Source: a virus. From it: DNA of 44,712 bases. The stretch lies in the IMG/VR virus record IMGVR_UViG_3300031576_000106, positions 1-44,712 of that record. One strand, given 5' to 3'. The translations under genes and the position numbers were made by a program. The stretch's first letter is position 1. Each line of letters opens with the position of its first letter. This document shows, in pieces, positions 5,561 to 38,497 of this stretch. The notes beneath the pieces were generated by a model. That model was not told where the DNA came from and did not search any database. It saw only the letters and a program-made list of their open reading frames with translations.

Positions 5561-7684
5561 ATGAAGCGCATTCTCCCCGTCGTCGCGCTGTTGCTGGCGC
5601 TCGCCGTGCCCGTGGCGGCCACCGTCTACCCGGGCTTCCGCAATGTGCCGACCGACAGCATGGTCACCATCATCGAGACGCTCCAACCCCCGCGGCCGCC
5701 CTACCGGGTGTGGCGCGAGAACACCCAGTTCAACATCCGCATGATGCGGATCGCCCAGGACAGCGGCACCCCGATCACGATCACCGAGGGCAGCCAGACC
5801 GGCGTGTGGGGCAAGGACTCGCGCCACCACTACTCCAAGGATCAGCCCTGGAACAACGACGGCACGCTCTACAAGATCGAGTACAACGGCACCCCGAGCG
5901 TGAGCGAGCTGATCCTGGACGCAGCCGACGACTACCGGCCGCTGCGGGGCCTGACCTGCCCGGGCCGCATCAGCCAGACCTCGGCGAAAAAGCTGTTCTA
6001 CGAAAACCGCTGGTCGCCGGTCGCCGGTAAGGCGAACGAGATGATCGGCATCGTCGACACCCTCAAGTCCGGGCCGCGCGGCGTGCTGGCGCGCTTCAAT
6101 ATCTTGACCTGTCAGCAAACCGGCTGGTGGGTGCTGGGCGGCTCGGGGGCCGGAGACTCGCTCGGCTGCCTTGCCTGTAGCGGTGCCGGGATCGGCCGCG
6201 GCGAGGGCAACATCTCGAACAACGGCCGCTTCGCAGCGATCGGCAAGTTCGACTACGACCTGGTGAACAACACCACCGGAGCCGCTGGTGCCGATGGGGT
6301 AGCGGACGATGGCGGGGCCGGCGTGGCACCGTTCAACCTGCTCAAGATCCAGCTCGTCGACATGGACTCGGGCCGCGTTGGGCCAGTGCAGACCCTGCCG
6401 ATTTCGCGGCTTGCCGACAGCCTGGTCGGACACTGGACGCTCTCGGCAACCGGCAAGTACCTGGTCGTCAAGTACGGCGAGGGCAGCGCGAACGAGAACT
6501 TCCGCGTCTTCGAGTTCGACACCTTAGGCCTCGAGTTCGGTGGGCTCAAGGTCCGCAACTACACCGGGCCGGTGCCGAATCCGACCGGCAGCGGAGCGAC
6601 TGGGGAAGCCACTGGGGTGTGCAACCGCTGCGCGCTCGCCAAAGGCAGCACCACTGACACGCTGCTCGCCTCCCAGGGCTGGATCACCATGCTCTCGCAC
6701 GAGGATGTCGGAATCGACAAGGACAGCTCGGGGGTGGACATCGTGGTCGGCCTGCCGCGGTGCAAGGGCGGGACGATGGCCAACTCGCATCTCGATGTGG
6801 TGGCGGTGAATCTGGCTACCGGGGTCACGCGGCCGGTGATGATGGAGACGACGTCGGGCAGCACGCTCAAGAACATGGGACCCGACTTCACGTCGCTGCG
6901 GAACGTCTACCGCCCGGGCTGGGCGTACATCGGCTACGAGATGGATAGCACCGGCTCTGATACCACGATCACGAGGAAGCGCTACCGGGACGAGGTGATC
7001 GCGGTCAAGATCAACAGCGTTGCGGTCACGCCCACGGTGATGCGCTTCGGGCATTCGCACTCGACCCAACACGCCACGCAGGGCACCTGGCCGGGGGAAC
7101 GCGGCAGCTCCACCTATCGGAACCAGTGGCACCCGGTCCCGAACTGGACCGGCAACATGGTGGCCTTCGCCTCGAACTGGAAGCGCTCGTGCCTGATCGG
7201 CTGCGGCCCCGGGATCGACCAGCGGAACGACTACGTCATGGACCTGCGGTGCTTCTCGCCGCGCAACGTGGTGGACTTCTGGGCCCAGGCCGTCGACACC
7301 GCCTCGATCATCGTGCGCTGGACCATGCCCGGGGAGGACACGATCTCCTACGGGGCGCCGCGGGTGGTCGATCTGCGCTACTCCACCAGCCCGATCAGCG
7401 CCAGCACCTTCGCCGCCGCCACCGCCGCCAGCCCGCAGCCGACGATCACCAGCTACGGGAAGGCGATGGACTACACCGTGACCGGGCTCGCGACCAACAC
7501 GGCCTACTACTTCGCCATGAAAATCTCGACTGCCTGCGGCTCGAGCACGGCACTGGTGAGCTGGTGCGCCTTCACCAAGACCACCGGCAACGGCGCCGAG
7601 GAGGTCTGCGAGGGGATCACGGCGGGCGGCAACAAGCCGGCACCGCCGTGCGATGGGTGCATCGGGGCGCCGCCTCCGGACTAG
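5561..7684 (+). CDS. Secreted beta-propeller protein with C-terminal FN3 domain (707 aa)
   Basis: The N-terminus MKRILPVVALLLALAVPVAA is a clear Sec signal peptide. The body is beta-rich with WD40/TolB-like propeller character (repeated ...RVFEFDTLG..., ...HLDVVAVNLATG..., ...RDEVIAVKINS...). Residues about 560-660 (VDFWAQAVDTASIIVRWTMPGEDT ... YTVTGLATNTAYYFAMKIST) are an FN3 domain. Many cysteines fit an extracytoplasmic, disulfide-bonded protein. ATG 5561 follows a weak GCGAGG. A signal-peptide protein of this size is unusual in a phage and looks acquired from a host. Its 3' end converges on the leftward operon with only 7 bp between stops and no obvious terminator. It might modify the infected cell surface or surroundings; function unknown. 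Confidence 0.65.
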   Translation: MKRILPVVALLLALAVPVAATVYPGFRNVPTDSMVTIIETLQPPRPPYRVWRENTQFNIRMMRIAQDSGTPITITEGSQTGVWGKDSRHHYSKDQPWNNDGTLYKIEYNGTPSVSELILDAADDYRPLRGLTCPGRISQTSAKKLFYENRWSPVAGKANEMIGIVDTLKSGPRGVLARFNILTCQQTGWWVLGGSGAGDSLGCLACSGAGIGRGEGNISNNGRFAAIGKFDYDLVNNTTGAAGADGVADDGGAGVAPFNLLKIQLVDMDSGRVGPVQTLPISRLADSLVGHWTLSATGKYLVVKYGEGSANENFRVFEFDTLGLEFGGLKVRNYTGPVPNPTGSGATGEATGVCNRCALAKGSTTDTLLASQGWITMLSHEDVGIDKDSSGVDIVVGLPRCKGGTMANSHLDVVAVNLATGVTRPVMMETTSGSTLKNMGPDFTSLRNVYRPGWAYIGYEMDSTGSDTTITRKRYRDEVIAVKINSVAVTPTVMRFGHSHSTQHATQGTWPGERGSSTYRNQWHPVPNWTGNMVAFASNWKRSCLIGCGPGIDQRNDYVMDLRCFSPRNVVDFWAQAVDTASIIVRWTMPGEDTISYGAPRVVDLRYSTSPISASTFAAATAASPQPTITSYGKAMDYTVTGLATNTAYYFAMKISTACGSSTALVSWCAFTKTTGNGAEEVCEGITAGGNKPAPPCDGCIGAPPPD

Positions 7685-10347: not shown

Positions 10348-10517
10348 GCCCCCCGCTCGCCGACCGTCAGGGGCGGTAGCGTGTCGCGCCAGAGTGAGAC
10401 GCCGAAGCCGGTCACGTGCCAGCGGAGGGTGCCGTGAGGCCCACTCCATCGTTCCCACGACGGGCGCAGGAACAAGCGGGAGAAGCTCAGGCCGAACGAG
10501 CGCCAGGTGAGGGTCAT
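10341..10517 (-). CDS. Unknown aromatic-rich protein (58 aa)
   Basis: ATG 10517 overlaps the stop of the RadC-like gene (ATGA) and its own stop couples to the next gene. Rich in Trp and Phe (TWRSFGLSFSRLFLRPSWERW ... WHVTGFGVSLWRD). Looks like a small beta sheet protein. Not recognised; too short for the tabulated ORFs in its own right but well placed. Confidence 0.55.
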   Translation of the reverse strand: MTLTWRSFGLSFSRLFLRPSWERWSGPHGTLRWHVTGFGVSLWRDTLPPLTVGERGAW

Positions 10518-10978
10518 AGCCCCCCCACGCGGCGTTGACGCAGCGAAACCGAGCCACGCTCGCCGATGATGACGTGATCGAGAACGGCGACGCCGAGCAG
10601 TTCGCCCGCCTGCACGAGCCGATCCGTGGTCGAAATATCCTCGTCCGAGGGCTCGGGATCCCCGCTCGGGTGATTGTGCGCGAAGATGATGGAAGCCGAG
10701 CCCGCCAGGATGGCGGCGCGGAAGACTTCGCGCGGATGGACGATCGAGGCGTTGAGCGAACCGATCGAGACGGTCTCGATCGCCGTGCACTCGTGGCGCG
10801 CGTTCAGCAGCAGCGCGACGAAGCGCTCGCGGTCGTCCTGGCGCTCGAGACCGCCCAGGATCAACACCACGTCCTCCGGTCCCAGCACGACAGGCCGGGA
10901 GCCGGGGGCGATCTCGCGCACCGTGTCGGCCACGTAGGCGGGCCGACGCAGGGCGCTGGGAGCGAGGGCGAGAGTCAC
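10514..10978 (-). CDS. RadC-like JAB/MPN-domain protein (154 aa)
   Basis: The metal-binding signature HNHPSG (residues 101-106) with a following SDED is the JAMM/MPN motif of the RadC family, and NARHECTAIETVSIGSLNASIVHPREVF upstream is the typical RadC strand-helix pattern. The N-terminal HhH part of bacterial RadC is absent, as in many phage and plasmid forms. GTG 10978 overlaps the upstream stop. RadC proteins are widespread on mobile elements; their biochemical activity is unsettled, and roles in DNA repair or as a metalloprotease-like enzyme have been proposed. Confidence 0.85.
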   Translation of the reverse strand: MTLALAPSALRRPAYVADTVREIAPGSRPVVLGPEDVVLILGGLERQDDRERFVALLLNARHECTAIETVSIGSLNASIVHPREVFRAAILAGSASIIFAHNHPSGDPEPSDEDISTTDRLVQAGELLGVAVLDHVIIGERGSVSLRQRRVGGL

Positions 10979-11139
10979 GCTACCCCCCGCTTGCCGAAGC
11001 TCCCGGCCTTCCCGTAGTCCAGCCCTTTGACCGGCAGAATGCGGCACACCATCCACGCCAGCCATCCCCAGCGCACCCGCACCCGAGCGGCCCCATTCCG
11101 CCGCCCCGAATCAACCACGTACCACGATGCTCGCTTCAT
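10975..11139 (-). CDS. Small basic protein, first gene of the leftward operon (54 aa)
   Basis: ATG 11139 follows GGGGGAAG, about 50 bases after the predicted transcription start. Basic and partly hydrophobic (RVRVRWGWLAWMVCRILPVKG). Not recognised. An upstream ATG at 11151 is in frame. Confidence 0.5.
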   Translation of the reverse strand: MKRASWYVVDSGRRNGAARVRVRWGWLAWMVCRILPVKGLDYGKAGSFGKRGVA

Positions 11140-11195
11140 GGCTTCCCCCATGTTTCTCGCCACAACGCCCCATGCGCTGCAACGTTCTACATCCC

Positions 11196-12258: not shown

Positions 12259-12576
12259 TCAGGCCCGCTCGAGCGCCGGGGCGTCGGAGTCGGCTCCACG
12301 TGGAACCAGTGGCTCGAGCTGCGGTGCCGCGCCAGGCGTCCACCAACGCAGGTCGTCGCGAAGCGTTCCCTCGCTGAGCGCGGCGTCGTCCGGGAGCGGC
12401 GGGAAGCGTCGGTCTGGAGGCCAGTGTCGCAACCGATCGCAGAGCACTGGGTGATCGTGAGGGCGAAGCCGGTGAGCCGCGATCCAATCCGCACACTCGG
12501 TCGCCGTCGGAGCCACGTCCTGAGACCAAATCCACACGAACATTCCCGCCGCGAACCTGCGACCCTCCAGGCTCAC
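12259..12576 (-). CDS. Unknown protein (105 aa)
   Basis: GTG 12576 overlaps the HNH gene stop (GTGA). Contains FVWIWSQDVAPTATECADWIAAHRLRPHDH, a helical stretch, and a proline-rich tail. Not recognised. Position next to replication-type genes suggests an early function. Confidence 0.5.
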   Translation of the reverse strand: MSLEGRRFAAGMFVWIWSQDVAPTATECADWIAAHRLRPHDHPVLCDRLRHWPPDRRFPPLPDDAALSEGTLRDDLRWWTPGAAPQLEPLVPRGADSDAPALERA

Positions 12577-13160
12577 TGATCCCTCGCAAATCCGTCTGCG
12601 GATTTTCTGCGTTCGTGTTCAGCGACGTTTTCCGCCGCCACGATCTGATCGGTTCGACACGATCTCCCCGGACCTCCGGGAGCGTAGTACGCATACGGCT
12701 GGTCTGGCTGGCGCTGCATTCGATCAAGAACCAGGGCTTCGATCGTGCGCATGTCGTGGATGCCGGTTTTCCACAGCCAGCCGCCGAAAGTCATCAGCGC
12801 ACGCCTCACCCGCGCGTTGTCGAACCGAATCAAGAACCTCCACAGGCGATCGGCTTCAAACTGGCGCGCTCGAGGAGCCGGTTTCGGAAACGACATTTTT
12901 TTCGCGAGCCTCCCGACGATTAGCCTCACGGGATCATCCTCGTGTTCCAACTCGTGGCAGCGCCTGCACAGCGTGATTAAGGCGTCGTCGGGGTAGTCCC
13001 ACGGGTCTCGGTCTGCCTCATATCGCAGGTGGTGGACCTGGATCGTTCCCCCTCCCCCCTCGCACTGCTGGCACGTGAACTTGTCGCGCTCGAGAATCTC
13101 CAGGCGCCGAAGTTTCCAGCGCACGTCCTCCAGCTTGGCGGCGTACTGCTCGGCGTTCAC
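12573..13160 (-). CDS. HNH endonuclease family protein (195 aa)
   Basis: The first 70 residues are a canonical HNH module: LEILERDKFTCQQCEGG (Cys30, Cys33), QVHHLRY (His43-His44), DYPDDALITLCRRCHELEH (Cys65, Cys68, His69). The C-terminal 120 residues are helical and basic (FPKPAPRARQFEADRLWRFLIRF ...) and not assigned. GTG 13160 lies behind GGAGAC and overlaps the stop of the replication-like gene. Nicking or cleavage of DNA in replication or recombination is the likely role. Confidence 0.8.
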   Translation of the reverse strand: MNAEQYAAKLEDVRWKLRRLEILERDKFTCQQCEGGGGTIQVHHLRYEADRDPWDYPDDALITLCRRCHELEHEDDPVRLIVGRLAKKMSFPKPAPRARQFEADRLWRFLIRFDNARVRRALMTFGGWLWKTGIHDMRTIEALVLDRMQRQPDQPYAYYAPGGPGRSCRTDQIVAAENVAEHERRKSADGFARDQ

Positions 13161-15284: not shown

Positions 15285-15632
15285 ATGGTAATCTGGTCCC
15301 TCGTAGCGCTCGCTTCACTGGTGCTCGCGGCTCTCGCGGCGGTCGCCGGTTTCGTCCTCGGACGCTGGGTCGAAATCCGATCGTCCCAGGCGACTCTATC
15401 CGCGATCGACCAGACCAGCCGGGCCCTCTCGATGACTATGAAGGCGGCGGCCGAAGCGCTGACGACCGAGACCAGGCTGACGAACCTTGAGCAGATCCTC
15501 ATCGACGCCGAGCGGAAGGACGAGAAGCGTTGGGAGCAACTGATGGCGCTGATCCCGGGATACGTCCGCGAGCGACCGATCCGGACTGGCCCCAGCTCGA
15601 GGGCGCCGATGCCGACCTTCCGAAGCCAGTAA
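15285..15632 (+). CDS. Membrane-anchored coiled-coil protein (115 aa)
   Basis: An N-terminal transmembrane segment (IWSLVALASLVLAALAAVAGFVLG) is followed by a long amphipathic helix (TLSAIDQTSRALSMTMKAAAEALTTETRLTNLEQILIDAERKDEKRWEQ). ATG 15285 follows GGGTAGG. It overlaps the terminase N-terminal frame by 103 bp. Unknown role; membrane protein next to packaging genes is unusual. Confidence 0.6.
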   Translation: MVIWSLVALASLVLAALAAVAGFVLGRWVEIRSSQATLSAIDQTSRALSMTMKAAAEALTTETRLTNLEQILIDAERKDEKRWEQLMALIPGYVRERPIRTGPSSRAPMPTFRSQ

Positions 15633-17491
15633 GGCGCCCGGGCGCCAAGAAGGGCGTCAAGTTCCCCAACCGCAAGCGTAAGACGCTCGTCTTCCAGACC
15701 CGCGGCAAGAGCCCGCGCTCCCCAATCGAAGCGCAGCCCGCGAAGCCCCCCAAGGACGAGCTCCACCTCAGCCGATTCCGTGAGGACTTCGACTTCTACG
15801 CCCCGCATGTGCTGCGCATCCTGCCGATGGACCGCGAGTGGATGCCGCTGCGCTTCAACCCCGCCCAGCTCCTGCTTCATCGCGCGCTCGAGCGCCAGCG
15901 CGTCCAGGGCCTGCCGATGCGCGCGATCGTATTGAAAAGCCGACAGACCGGCATCTCGACCTACGTGCAGGCGCGGGGCTTCCACACCTGTCACATGCGC
16001 GAGGGCCGCAAGTTTCTGACGCTCGCGCACAAGCTGGAGTCGGCGAAGCACCTCTTCGATATGTCGCGCGGCTTCCACGACCATCTACCCAAGCAGGGGG
16101 TGCTCTCCGACCGCAAGCGCATCGCCAATCGACGCGAGATCCAGTTCGATAACGGATCAACAATCCAGGTCGAAGTCGTCGGCGAGGTCCGCAGCTACAC
16201 CTGTGACGTACTTCACCTCAGCGAGACGGCGTTCTGGCTTGAGCCACAGAAGACCATGCGCTCGATCCGGCAGACCGTGCCGCGGCGCCCCAACACCATC
16301 GTGGTGATTGAATCGACGCCGAACGGGCTCAACTATTTCCATGATCTCTGGGTGCGCGCGGTGCGCGGCAAGAGCGGCTACGCGCCGGTCTTCATCGCCT
16401 GGTTCAACGACACCGAATCCCTGACCGTCGATCCCTGGTTCACCGAGAACGATCTTGACCCCGAGGAGCGACGGCTCATGGATCAATTCGGGGTCACGCT
16501 CCGGCAGCTCGCGTGGCGGCGGATGAAGATCGAAGACGACTGCGACGGCGACCTCGACGCCTTCAACCAGGAGTTTCCGAGCGACCCGGAGACCTGCTTT
16601 TTGAGCAGCAGTCGGCCAGTGTTCGACACCGACGGGATGGCGTTTCAGACCGCTAACATGATCCCCGACGAAGACCTGGAGACCAAGGAAATCTCCTGGT
16701 CGGTGAGCGAGAGCAAGCCGGTGATCGAAACGGTGCGAAAGGGCCGGCTCGTGATCTTCGATAACCACCCGATTCCGCGGCACTCGTACATCCTCGGCAT
16801 CGACCCGTCGGAGGGCGATGCGCAGTCGGATCGTTCGCCGATTGCGGTGCTGGATCAGATGACCCTCGCCTTCGCCGGCTTCTGGGTCGGTCGTGCCCCG
16901 CCCGACCTTCTGGCTCGTCACGCCTTCGCGATGGGGCACCTCTTCAACGAGGGACAGCTCATCTGGGAGGCGAACCTTCACGGCGGCTCCTTCGGCCTCG
17001 CGATCCAGGAGCTGGGCTACTTCAACATCTGGATGCGCCGCGTGAACTCGGACACCGTCGCGGGTCGGATCACCGACAAGCCCGGATACATGAACACTCG
17101 GAAGTCGCGTGCCATCCTCTACGACACCATGCGGAAGTTCATCCGCGAGCGGATCTCGGCGGTTCGCCATCCGGAACTGGTCTCTGAGCTGGGGACCTTG
17201 ATCTTCGATGGCGACCAGCCGCGCGCGCAGCGGGGCTACCTGGACGATCTGGTGGTGGCGGCCGCGCTCTGTCTGGTGGCGCACCGGGGCGCGGCCGACG
17301 CGCCGCTTGAGCCGCTGCCGATGGAGACGTTGCGCGCCGCGCACGCGCGCGTGGCCTGGAAGCTCGAGATCGGCCACAAGCTCCGGCCCGACGACATCGC
17401 CGATCCGAACGTGACATGCGAGGACATTGAGAAGTACGATGAGCTGATGGAGCGCAGAGAGCGCCGCGCTCGACGTCGGGCCATGACGTAG
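15530..17491 (+). CDS. terL: Terminase large subunit (653 aa)
   Basis: The ATP-driven packaging motor and nuclease. ATPase: Walker A-like KSRQTGIST near residue 135 and Walker B with catalytic glutamate in VLHLSETAFW near 226. Nuclease: GIDPSEGDAQSD near 420, with further acidic residues in the C-terminal part including YLDDLVVAAAL. N-terminal homology begins at FREDFDFYAPHVLRI; the 80 residues before it are basic and proline-rich. The only upstream start in frame is TTG 15530, overlapping the previous gene by 103 bp, so the real start may be a non-standard codon further down. Length is normal or slightly long. Confidence 0.85.
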   Translation: MGATDGADPGIRPRATDPDWPQLEGADADLPKPVRRPGAKKGVKFPNRKRKTLVFQTRGKSPRSPIEAQPAKPPKDELHLSRFREDFDFYAPHVLRILPMDREWMPLRFNPAQLLLHRALERQRVQGLPMRAIVLKSRQTGISTYVQARGFHTCHMREGRKFLTLAHKLESAKHLFDMSRGFHDHLPKQGVLSDRKRIANRREIQFDNGSTIQVEVVGEVRSYTCDVLHLSETAFWLEPQKTMRSIRQTVPRRPNTIVVIESTPNGLNYFHDLWVRAVRGKSGYAPVFIAWFNDTESLTVDPWFTENDLDPEERRLMDQFGVTLRQLAWRRMKIEDDCDGDLDAFNQEFPSDPETCFLSSSRPVFDTDGMAFQTANMIPDEDLETKEISWSVSESKPVIETVRKGRLVIFDNHPIPRHSYILGIDPSEGDAQSDRSPIAVLDQMTLAFAGFWVGRAPPDLLARHAFAMGHLFNEGQLIWEANLHGGSFGLAIQELGYFNIWMRRVNSDTVAGRITDKPGYMNTRKSRAILYDTMRKFIRERISAVRHPELVSELGTLIFDGDQPRAQRGYLDDLVVAAALCLVAHRGAADAPLEPLPMETLRAAHARVAWKLEIGHKLRPDDIADPNVTCEDIEKYDELMERRERRARRRAMT

Positions 17492-35930: not shown

Positions 35931-37451
35931 ATGACCAACCAGAACGTCCTTGAGCGGGCGAGGTCGGCGATCGGGTACAGCTGCAAGTACCTGCTCGGAA
36001 AAGGCGGCTTCAACCCGGCCTCGCAGTTTCCCTGGAACGCGCGTGGCGAACTCGACTGCTGTTTGGTCGCCGAGACGATGGTGCATTCGGAGCGCGGTGC
36101 CGTCCCGATCAAGGATCTCGTGACAGGAGACGCGGTCTGGTCTTGGGATGGCGGGACGCTTAATCGGCGGCGCGTGACGGCCACCTATGCGCACGGCGAG
36201 CGCGATTTGCTTCGCCTTCGTACCACCGGCCGAGAAGTGCTGCTGACCGGCAACCATCCACTGCTGACCCCTGTCTCGCTCGGCAGGCCGCGTGGTGCCT
36301 CTGGAACCTTCGGTCGACGCGCGTGGATGCTCGGCTGGAAGCCAGCGGGCGCGCTGCGACGCGGGGATTGGGTGGTCGCCGCCAGCCGCATCCCGCTTGG
36401 GACGGCCTCCAAGTACGACGTCGAGCAATGCTGGGTTCTCGGTCTCTACCTCGCCGACGGCTCAGGCTCCTCTATCTGCGTGTACGGCGAGACCCGCGAT
36501 AGAGTCCGCGCGTTTTTCGAGGCCCGCTTTGGCGTGCGCGGTACGTACACGGAGCGAGGCGGATTCCAGACAGGATCGCATGTCGCGCGGCGCTTCTTTG
36601 TCGCCGCTGGCGTCACTGGCGATTGCTACACGAAGCGCGTACCCGAGTGGGTGTCGCGAGAGCCCGAGGCGAACGTGCTGTCTTTCCTCCGGGGCTATTT
36701 GGCGGGCGACGGTCACGAGTCCCTGCGGCCGTATCGGTCATGGAGCTTCGCATCGGCCGCCCGGGAGCTGTTGTCCGGCATGCGCGCGCTATGTCAAGCC
36801 GTAGGCATTCGCACCTCCACCGTGTCGCGCCGCGAGCGGCCCGACCGCATCAAGATCAAGGGCGTGGTTGTCAAGCACGCCCGCCCGTTGTTCACGTTCG
36901 AGGCATACCCGGACTCGGCTCGCCGCGGCGACACCGCCGCGTGTAGTGCGCGAAATGCGGTAAGCGGCGACTTCGCTCTGCAACGAATCAGGTCCATCGA
37001 GCCGGCTGGCAGCGCCCCCGTGTTCGACATTACGGTGGAAGGGCAGCACAACTTCCTCGCTGACGGCATCGTCGTCCACAACTCCGGCTTCGCGGCCTGG
37101 TGTCTCGGTATCTCGCGCTTCACTGAGACGCCCTTCTTCCTCGATCGCGAATGGATCGAGACCACCGCGATCGTCCAGGACGCCAAGCGGGTGGGTGTGG
37201 GGTGGTTCGACGAGGTGCCGATGGGACTCGCGCGCGTTGGCCACCTGATCGTCTACGGTGACGCTCACGGAAAACAGGGCCACGTTGGCATCGTCTCCAA
37301 GGTCGACGAGCACGGCCCGCTGTTCGTGATCCACTGCTCGCGTGGGAACTACACGCGCGTCAACGACGCGATTCAGGAGACCAGCGCCGGATTTTTCAAA
37401 CTGCGCGACGCGATCGTGGCCCGCGCCGGCTTCATCGAGGAGCCCGTCTGA
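35931..37451 (+). CDS. NlpC/P60 endolysin interrupted by an intein (506-aa precursor)
   Basis: The precursor has 43 N-extein residues, a 341-residue intein and 122 C-extein residues. Removing the intein joins GELDC to SGFAAWCLG, giving DCSGFxAWCLG, the catalytic-cysteine motif of NlpC/P60-type peptidoglycan peptidases; GKQGHVGIV (His451) and VIHCSRG supply the rest of the triad. The spliced product is 165 aa, a normal lysin size, and would cut peptide cross-links of the cell wall. The unspliced precursor has its catalytic Cys43 beside the intein and lacks the downstream half of the motif. Coupled to the next gene by TGATG (overlapping ATG 37451). Confidence 0.85.
   Translation: MTNQNVLERARSAIGYSCKYLLGKGGFNPASQFPWNARGELDCCLVAETMVHSERGAVPIKDLVTGDAVWSWDGGTLNRRRVTATYAHGERDLLRLRTTGREVLLTGNHPLLTPVSLGRPRGASGTFGRRAWMLGWKPAGALRRGDWVVAASRIPLGTASKYDVEQCWVLGLYLADGSGSSICVYGETRDRVRAFFEARFGVRGTYTERGGFQTGSHVARRFFVAAGVTGDCYTKRVPEWVSREPEANVLSFLRGYLAGDGHESLRPYRSWSFASAARELLSGMRALCQAVGIRTSTVSRRERPDRIKIKGVVVKHARPLFTFEAYPDSARRGDTAACSARNAVSGDFALQRIRSIEPAGSAPVFDITVEGQHNFLADGIVVHNSGFAAWCLGISRFTETPFFLDREWIETTAIVQDAKRVGVGWFDEVPMGLARVGHLIVYGDAHGKQGHVGIVSKVDEHGPLFVIHCSRGNYTRVNDAIQETSAGFFKLRDAIVARAGFIEEPV
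36060..37082 (+). mobile_element. LAGLIDADG intein in the lysin gene (341 aa)
   Basis: All splicing blocks are visible: Cys1 (precursor residue 44) in CLVAETMVHSERGAVPIKDL (block A), LLTGNHPLL (block B, His109), block F VFDITVEGQHNFLADG with His373, and block G VVHN ending in His383-Asn384, with Ser385 as the +1 nucleophile. A LAGLIDADG homing endonuclease sits inside, with VEQCWVLGLYLADGSGS and VLSFLRGYLAGDGHES as its two helices. No inactivating change was seen, so both splicing and homing may work. Its insertion at a conserved active-site codon is typical of inteins, since deletion must be precise. Confidence 0.9.
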
Positions 37452-37756
37452 TGACCGAGAATGGACTGGCGTTCGCGAAGAAGGTGGGCATCGTCGCTGG
37501 CACCCTGTTGGCCGTGATCTCACTCAGCAACGTGCTCGGGGGCTGCGCGATTCGGGTGTTGGTCCTGCCCGAGATCGAGCGCGTGGTCAGGGAGGAGCGC
37601 GAGGCTCGCGTTAAGGCGGACATGAAATTGGCTACGGCCATCGCGGGGCTCTCGAGCGACCGAGTGCAGATCCTGGCTATCATGGGGGAGCGCGATCAGA
37701 GGCAGCGGATCAGAATGCTGCGCCTCCTCCGCAACCACAAAACCACCGCCGAATAG
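37451..37756 (+). CDS. Membrane protein with coiled coil, holin/spanin-like (101 aa)
   Basis: ATG 37451 shares its A with the lysin stop. One hydrophobic segment (KKVGIVAGTLLAVISLSNVLGGCAIRVLVL) is followed by a charged coiled coil (EIERVVREEREARVKADMKLATAIAGL) and a basic C-terminus. Layout fits an Rz-like inner-membrane spanin or a single-pass holin; VLGGC could also be read as a weak lipobox. Confidence 0.55.
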   Translation: MTENGLAFAKKVGIVAGTLLAVISLSNVLGGCAIRVLVLPEIERVVREEREARVKADMKLATAIAGLSSDRVQILAIMGERDQRQRIRMLRLLRNHKTTAE

Positions 37757-37767
37757 AGGAGATCGAA

Positions 37768-37935
37768 ATGTTCGGAAGAGAACCCGTTGCGATCACGGCG
37801 GCCACCAGGGCCACCGTTCTGTGCGCCGTCGCCTTCGGCCTCAAGTGGACGCCGGAGCAGATCGCGGCCACCATGGTCGCGCTCGAAGCGATCCTGGCGC
37901 TGGTCGTTCGTTCCCAGGTCTCGCCGACCCGGTAG
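37768..37935 (+). CDS. Holin-like small membrane protein (55 aa)
   Basis: ATG 37768 with GAGGAGA upstream; TAG at 37933. MFGREPVAITAATRATVLCAVAFGLKWTPEQIAATMVALEAILALVVRSQVSPTR shows two hydrophobic stretches around a polar turn, close to a family of small phage proteins found next to lysins (FGREP...AFGLxxTxEQ...LxxVxRSQVxP). Likely a holin that times release of the lysin or its activation. Confidence 0.6.
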   Translation: MFGREPVAITAATRATVLCAVAFGLKWTPEQIAATMVALEAILALVVRSQVSPTR

Positions 37936-37966: not shown

Positions 37967-38497
37967 ATGAAGCGTCTCTTGCTGTTTCTGTTGATCGCTG
38001 GGATTGCCTGGGCCGCGAGCCCAGCCCGCGCCCAGAAGCTCACCGACATCCGCGCCCGCGCCCAGCTCTCGGCCAACGGGGGCGGGCTGTGGTTCACCGA
38101 GGCCGGCGGTGGCAAGGACAACTGGCAGGGTGCGGGCCTCGGTGGCGCGCTGACCTACAGCGTCCACAAGCAGCTCGCCGTCTACGGGGCACTCGACCAC
38201 GGCTTCCCGTTCGCGGACTCTGACGGGCACCAGAACTTCGCTCGCGTGGTGGCGAACCTCAAGGTCTATCCGAACGGTCCCGAACCGAGCGACAACGCGA
38301 TCTTCATCGGCTTCGGCCGTGGCTGGTTCGGCAGCAACGTGGGCGATCGAGTCACCAACGACGCCCAGATCGTGGTCGCTCACAAGTTCCGACCACGGCT
38401 CTCGGGCGGGATTCTCTACGCCCACGCCTTCGGTCGGGAGAACGAGCCCGACTTCGACTTCGTGAAGCTCGCGCTCAACACCCGCTGGTATCCGTAG
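37967..38497 (+). CDS. Outer-membrane beta-barrel protein (176 aa)
   Basis: ATG 37967 behind GGAGG. A Sec signal peptide MKRLLLFLLIAGIAWAASPARA is followed by alternating beta strands (GGALTYSVHKQLAVYGALDHGF; NAIFIGFGRGWFGS; GGILYAHAFGREN) that end in VKLALNTRWYP, the aromatic C-terminus of barrel proteins. About 150 mature residues fit an eight-stranded barrel like OmpX/Ail/Lom. Phages sometimes carry such proteins to alter the surface of infected or lysogenic hosts; a role in superinfection exclusion or in escape is possible. Confidence 0.65.
   Translation: MKRLLLFLLIAGIAWAASPARAQKLTDIRARAQLSANGGGLWFTEAGGGKDNWQGAGLGGALTYSVHKQLAVYGALDHGFPFADSDGHQNFARVVANLKVYPNGPEPSDNAIFIGFGRGWFGSNVGDRVTNDAQIVVAHKFRPRLSGGILYAHAFGRENEPDFDFVKLALNTRWYP

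Follow-up and report, generated by a model that had tools for sequence, protein, structure and literature searches.

A predicted homing intein splits a putative phage endolysin at the catalytic cysteine, a site shared with tape-measure hydrolase domains

Phage inteins are known mainly from genes of DNA metabolism and packaging. In actinophages, inteins of terminase, RDF, TOPRIM, Cas4-like and methylase proteins likewise lie beside conserved motifs, often those of active sites, after invariant residues, and a mycobacteriophage intein survey presents insertion beside catalytic motifs as habitual for phage inteins (Kelley et al., 2016; PMC5050341). That text covers thirteen groups of host proteins and mentions neither lysins nor tape measures, whereas the host described here is a lysin. 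According to another study, none of 224 mycobacteriophage lysins was interrupted by an intron or intein (Payne and Hatfull; PMC3314691). Both sources agree with an earlier sequence-only reading of the present DNA, which had held lysin inteins to be rare. The open-access papers searched contained no earlier account of a phage lysin with an intein, nor of any intein at the insertion site described below. The host site therefore appears to be new to reports, and it also appears to be a recurrent target with clean empty alleles.

The DNA analysed, here called the window, is a virus record of 44,712 bases (IMGVR_UViG_3300031576_000106, positions 1-44,712). On its plus strand, a reading frame at 35931-37451 stays open throughout and encodes 506 amino acids. 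The segment at 36060-37082 (+; 341 aa, residues 44-384, from Cys1, which is Cys44 of the precursor, to Asn384) is an intein, with a Hint splicing domain and a LAGLIDADG endonuclease, and this identity is far beyond chance. Comparison with profile models, which had been proposed as a check, gave scores above the curated cut-offs for Pfam Intein_splicing (48 bits, cut-off 35.8), Pfam LAGLIDADG_3 (29 bits, cut-off 22.5; residues 249-303), NCBIfam intein_Nterm (26.2 bits, cut-off 24.5) and NCBIfam intein_Cterm (37.8 bits, cut-off 15.6), and residues 44-384 of the translation correspond exactly to the coordinates given by the sequence-only reading. The translation also contains the splicing residues and the two LAGLIDADG helices that had been called intact. 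The complete class-1 set consists of Cys44, the T106-x-x-H109 of block B (T106-G-N-H109, 36246-36257, +), whose N-H is invariant across four aligned site-sharing proteins, His373, His383 and Asn384 (C-terminal splicing blocks F/G, VFDITVEGQHNFLADGIVVHN, 37017-37082, +), and Ser385 at position +1. The first helix ends in VLGLYLADG (36435-36461, +) with catalytic-type Asp176 in LADG, the second in FLRGYLAGDG (36684-36713, +) with catalytic-type Asp260 in AGDG, and D176, G177, D260 and G261 are all invariant in the alignment. The intein has 66% GC, the exteins have 63-64%, and the overall value is 67%.

The N-extein (35931-36059, +; residues 1-43) ends with the catalytic Cys43 (...GELDC), and the C-extein (37083-37451, +; residues 385-506, SGFAAWC...GHVGIV...) begins with the remainder of the active-site motif, which bears out the claim that the intein splits this motif. 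The intein had been described as starting one codon after Cys43 and ending before Ser385; the end holds, and the start can be put more precisely, as the first intein residue is codon 44, directly after Cys43. Joined in silico, the exteins form a 165-aa hydrolase of CHAP/NlpC type that scores 29.5 bits with Pfam CHAP (PF05257; cut-off 26) and retains the catalytic Cys43 and His451 (GHVGIV), while the interrupted protein scores 22.8 bits, below the cut-off. CHAP and NlpC/P60 are both families of papain-like cysteine peptidases. The rebuilt active site had been called NlpC/P60: DCSGF is indeed restored on joining, but Pfam assigns the joined extein to CHAP and reported no NlpC/P60 (PF00877) match for the window protein.

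A predicted membrane protein of 101 aa (37451-37756, +), with a hydrophobic N-terminal segment followed by a charged helix, has a start codon overlapping the lysin stop; it matched no family and is spanin-like by appearance only. Two genes downstream of the lysin lies a 55-aa holin (37768-37935, +; PHROG 9752, phrog_9752, E 9.6e-7), and genes of capsid, portal and terminase type lie upstream. No second lysin was recognised among the subset of window genes tested. Because the joined product is a CHAP protein, a holin lies two genes downstream and intein-free lysin relatives exist, the host gene is, judged from sequence, very likely a phage endolysin, as the sequence-only reading had proposed. 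A virion-associated tail hydrolase is an unlikely alternative that draws on two observations, namely that related inteins occur in tape-measure proteins and that, among weak PHROG matches of the joined product, which include tail lysins and endolysins, the minor tail protein phrog_329 ranks first (E 1.5e-4). The phrog_329 match, however, reflects a shared hydrolase domain, and the product would be a stand-alone, single-domain enzyme of 165 aa whose gene lies just ahead of those for a membrane protein and a holin; its intein-free relatives also stand alone, with predicted membrane proteins encoded after them. The lysis genes have as a neighbour, at 37967-38497, a 176-aa protein with a signal peptide and a strand-rich look, perhaps an outer-membrane barrel, for which no family match was found; if it is a barrel, it hints at a diderm host.

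Intein-free relatives of the lysin were reached by one route only, a degenerate DNA pattern for DCSGFxAWC, which matched ten viral contigs. Three of these (L068, L061 and L067) encode stand-alone lysins, each with a predicted membrane protein next downstream. Compared along the joined product, they reach 45, 45 and 43% identity (E 8e-44 to 8e-39). They belong to the same family and carry the same DCSGFxAWC motif, but without an intein. Their N-termini align with the N-extein, and the alignment is gapless at the splice junction, which shows, independently of the intein models, that the boundaries are right and that empty alleles exist. The search for intein-free alleles suggested by the sequence-only reading thus succeeded. 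NlpC/P60 is below the Pfam cut-off in all three and rises above it only in a more distant relative (L065). Protein patterns run on viral and genome contigs and tblastn against phages recovered no intein-free lysin relatives, a profile rescan built with the lysins found gave nothing further, and the phage records contained no close relative.

The same insertion point is used elsewhere. Inteins occupy one and the same DC/SG codon (the slash marks the insertion point) in at least six proteins. One is the window lysin; the other five, from phage records and viral contigs (Gordonia phage BearBQ, L014, L016, L026 and L075), are hydrolase domains of tape-measure or tape-measure-like proteins. All six share the N-junction D-C-C and the C-junction H-N-S-G. 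Among 50,697 phage records, the best match of the window intein is the tape measure of BearBQ (E 3e-39; next best 5e-15), where a hydrolase-like domain is interrupted as ...PYVWGGVNWGDC / C...VVHN / SGAMSAF.... The BearBQ intein (OR253908, gene 17, annotated as tape measure protein only) is also class-1 with a LAGLIDADG endonuclease and sits at the same catalytic-cysteine point, with 31.5-35% identity over its full length; it is 372 aa long and its host is a tape measure from an actinobacterial siphophage, whereas the window intein resides in a stand-alone lysin. The intein of L075 (IMGVR_UViG_3300043698_000061, reverse strand, oriented 10781-11182) is a mini-intein of 134 aa that lacks an endonuclease; it is inserted at the catalytic cysteine in the NlpC-type domain of a 2,360-aa tape-measure-like protein, whose motif there is a textbook NlpC-type one (PYVWGGSTPAGWDC/C...HN/SGFVSWVYNHLG). 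Such tape-measure-borne domains presumably act at entry, not at lysis. With five further cell-wall hydrolase domains of phages interrupted at this very point, the lysin active site looks, from these sequences, like a place where a selfish element has landed repeatedly and not like a proven lysis timer. Occupation of one active-site codon in a lysin and five tape-measure hydrolases would add cell-wall hydrolases to the recurrent hosts of inteins.

The four full-length tape-measure inteins form one clade in the tree (support 100/99). By path length no other intein is closer to them than the window intein, yet its placement is weak, and a clade of all five was not recovered. A tree constrained to unite it with the four is worse by 5.9 log-likelihood units, a difference too small for rejection (p-AU 0.119). 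The best tree separates it from them, and the trees did not support reading the shared insertion point as the mark of a single allele family. These data would be compatible either with passage of the intein from a tape-measure gene into a lysin gene or with separate invasions of one conserved stretch of DNA. Matches to inteins of terminase, RNR, DnaB, methylase and portal proteins were set aside, as these are inserted at other sites, and a plasmid search returned no match at E 1e-10.

Related inteins were also seen in other phage proteins. In L015 (IMGVR_UViG_3300021469_000002, 6001-7059), a Trypsin_2-type protease is interrupted as TIFGN / C...HN / SGGAVY; the intein splits GN/SGG directly before the catalytic serine, so that the nucleophile of the enzyme is the +1 extein residue. 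Two further contigs (L017 and L018) carry related inteins in phage portal proteins, with junctions C...HN / S.

Mobility is most evident in two phages of the same host species. BearBQ and Birdsong differ by an exact presence or absence of 1,116 bp (372 codons) at GGGGACTGC/TCCGGA, with flanks 97.3-97.8% identical and the bases at the joint identical. The joined BearBQ region matches 331 phage records, and 298 of these span 80% or more of it at a single location and are thus read as uninterrupted; the BearBQ intein itself, searched against phage records at E 1e-10, matches only BearBQ. Comparison of the four full-length tape-measure inteins with one another gives dN/dS of 0.12-0.29 (Nei-Gojobori), and this holds in the endonuclease part too, as expected of a working homing element, although dS is high and near saturation. 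Between the window intein and the others it is 0.50-0.67, again near saturation and so weakly informative. The BearBQ/Birdsong pair, together with the L075 mini-intein, offers clean material for the cost or effect of an intein in a lytic enzyme.

We hold with high confidence, on the strength of what can be read in the sequences (the anatomy, its boundaries, empty alleles, repeated use of the site and one clean presence/absence pair), that in the window a class-1 intein with a LAGLIDADG endonuclease, which would splice and spread by homing, splits an endolysin at the catalytic cysteine. A single 506-aa precursor would be translated from the reading frame, and the intein would excise itself through Cys44, His383-Asn384 and Ser385, joining Cys43 to Ser385 and rebuilding DCSGF and the 165-aa hydrolase, which in turn would lyse the host. 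The presumed cutting target of the endonuclease is the conserved active-site DNA of intein-free copies, GAC-TGC/TCN-GG(N), into which the element would spread by homing. It should also be hard to lose, since only exact removal leaves a working enzyme. With the motif split, and Cys43 and His451 on different exteins, the enzyme is likely to depend on splicing and the precursor is likely inactive. A natural intein that holds a bacteriolytic enzyme apart until splicing could aid lysin production.

Structure prediction accords with this arrangement. An AlphaFold2 model of the 506-aa precursor from 15 aligned sequences reached a pLDDT of 79.5, with most of the intein at 80-95 and the flanking residues 17-41 and 386-408 below 50. 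The catalytic-helix sequence SGFAAWC falls in the low-confidence stretch 386-408 and is predicted to be disordered in the precursor, which would be consistent with an inactive precursor. Foldseek against the PDB returned full inteins with homing endonucleases, the best being TliVMA (7qsu, E 2.9e-20), and mini-inteins as well. The Npu and Ssp DnaB and TliVMA inteins (PDB 4o1r, 1mi8 and 7qsu) share the Hint fold with the window intein, and TliVMA also has an inserted LAGLIDADG endonuclease; all three come from other host proteins and are 11-19% identical to the window intein in the fold comparison.

A built-in delay of lysis or a switch responding to host conditions had been suggested by the sequence-only reading and proved unsupported. 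Under such a scheme the intein would be retained as a regulator whose slow or conditional splicing times lysis, for example through a Cys43-Cys1 disulfide that blocks splicing until the cell is reducing. The insertion does split the active-site motif, the catalytic helix (386-408) has low confidence in the precursor model, all six proteins interrupted at this site have the Cys-Cys junction, and cysteine-based redox control, extein cysteines included, has been described for other inteins (PMC6195587). All evidence for regulated splicing, however, comes from those other inteins, and the cysteine at -1 is there for the needs of the enzyme, not through selection for regulation. Tape-measure domains with no known role in lysis are interrupted at this site as well, intein-free lysins of the same family exist, and a holin is encoded here. 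Holins already time lysis. We therefore give the switch very little credence. The single structural hint of regulation is the enzyme's catalytic cysteine at -1 beside intein Cys1, and nothing favours regulation; extended into a general scheme, in which catalytic-nucleophile sites of phage peptidoglycan hydrolases would be a recurrent intein site and the paired cysteines a redox lock coupling activation to the reducing state, it seems to us just as improbable. Given the tape-measure domains, the intein-free relatives and the insertion habit of phage inteins, homing into conserved DNA suffices to explain the position, and no regulatory role is needed. It is similarly hard to credit that the intein has decayed or splices poorly, with the gene effectively dead and the phage using another lysin. 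The window intein has diverged from all its relatives (best 31-37% identity), but its catalytic residues and both endonuclease aspartates are intact within an open frame of 506 codons, and the genes tested, which were not every gene, included no recognisable second lysin.

The phage seems to come from a poorly sampled lineage, as its terminase large subunit (15530-17491) matches PHROGs only weakly and a terminase pattern matched nothing in IMG/VR. That search thus gave no close relative of the window phage, and for that reason no intein-free copy of exactly this gene is known. Elsewhere in the window, on the minus strand, are an HNH endonuclease-like protein scoring just under the Pfam cut-off (12573-13160) and a RadC-like JAB-domain protein, here in a phage, with a Pfam score of 135 bits (10514-11065).
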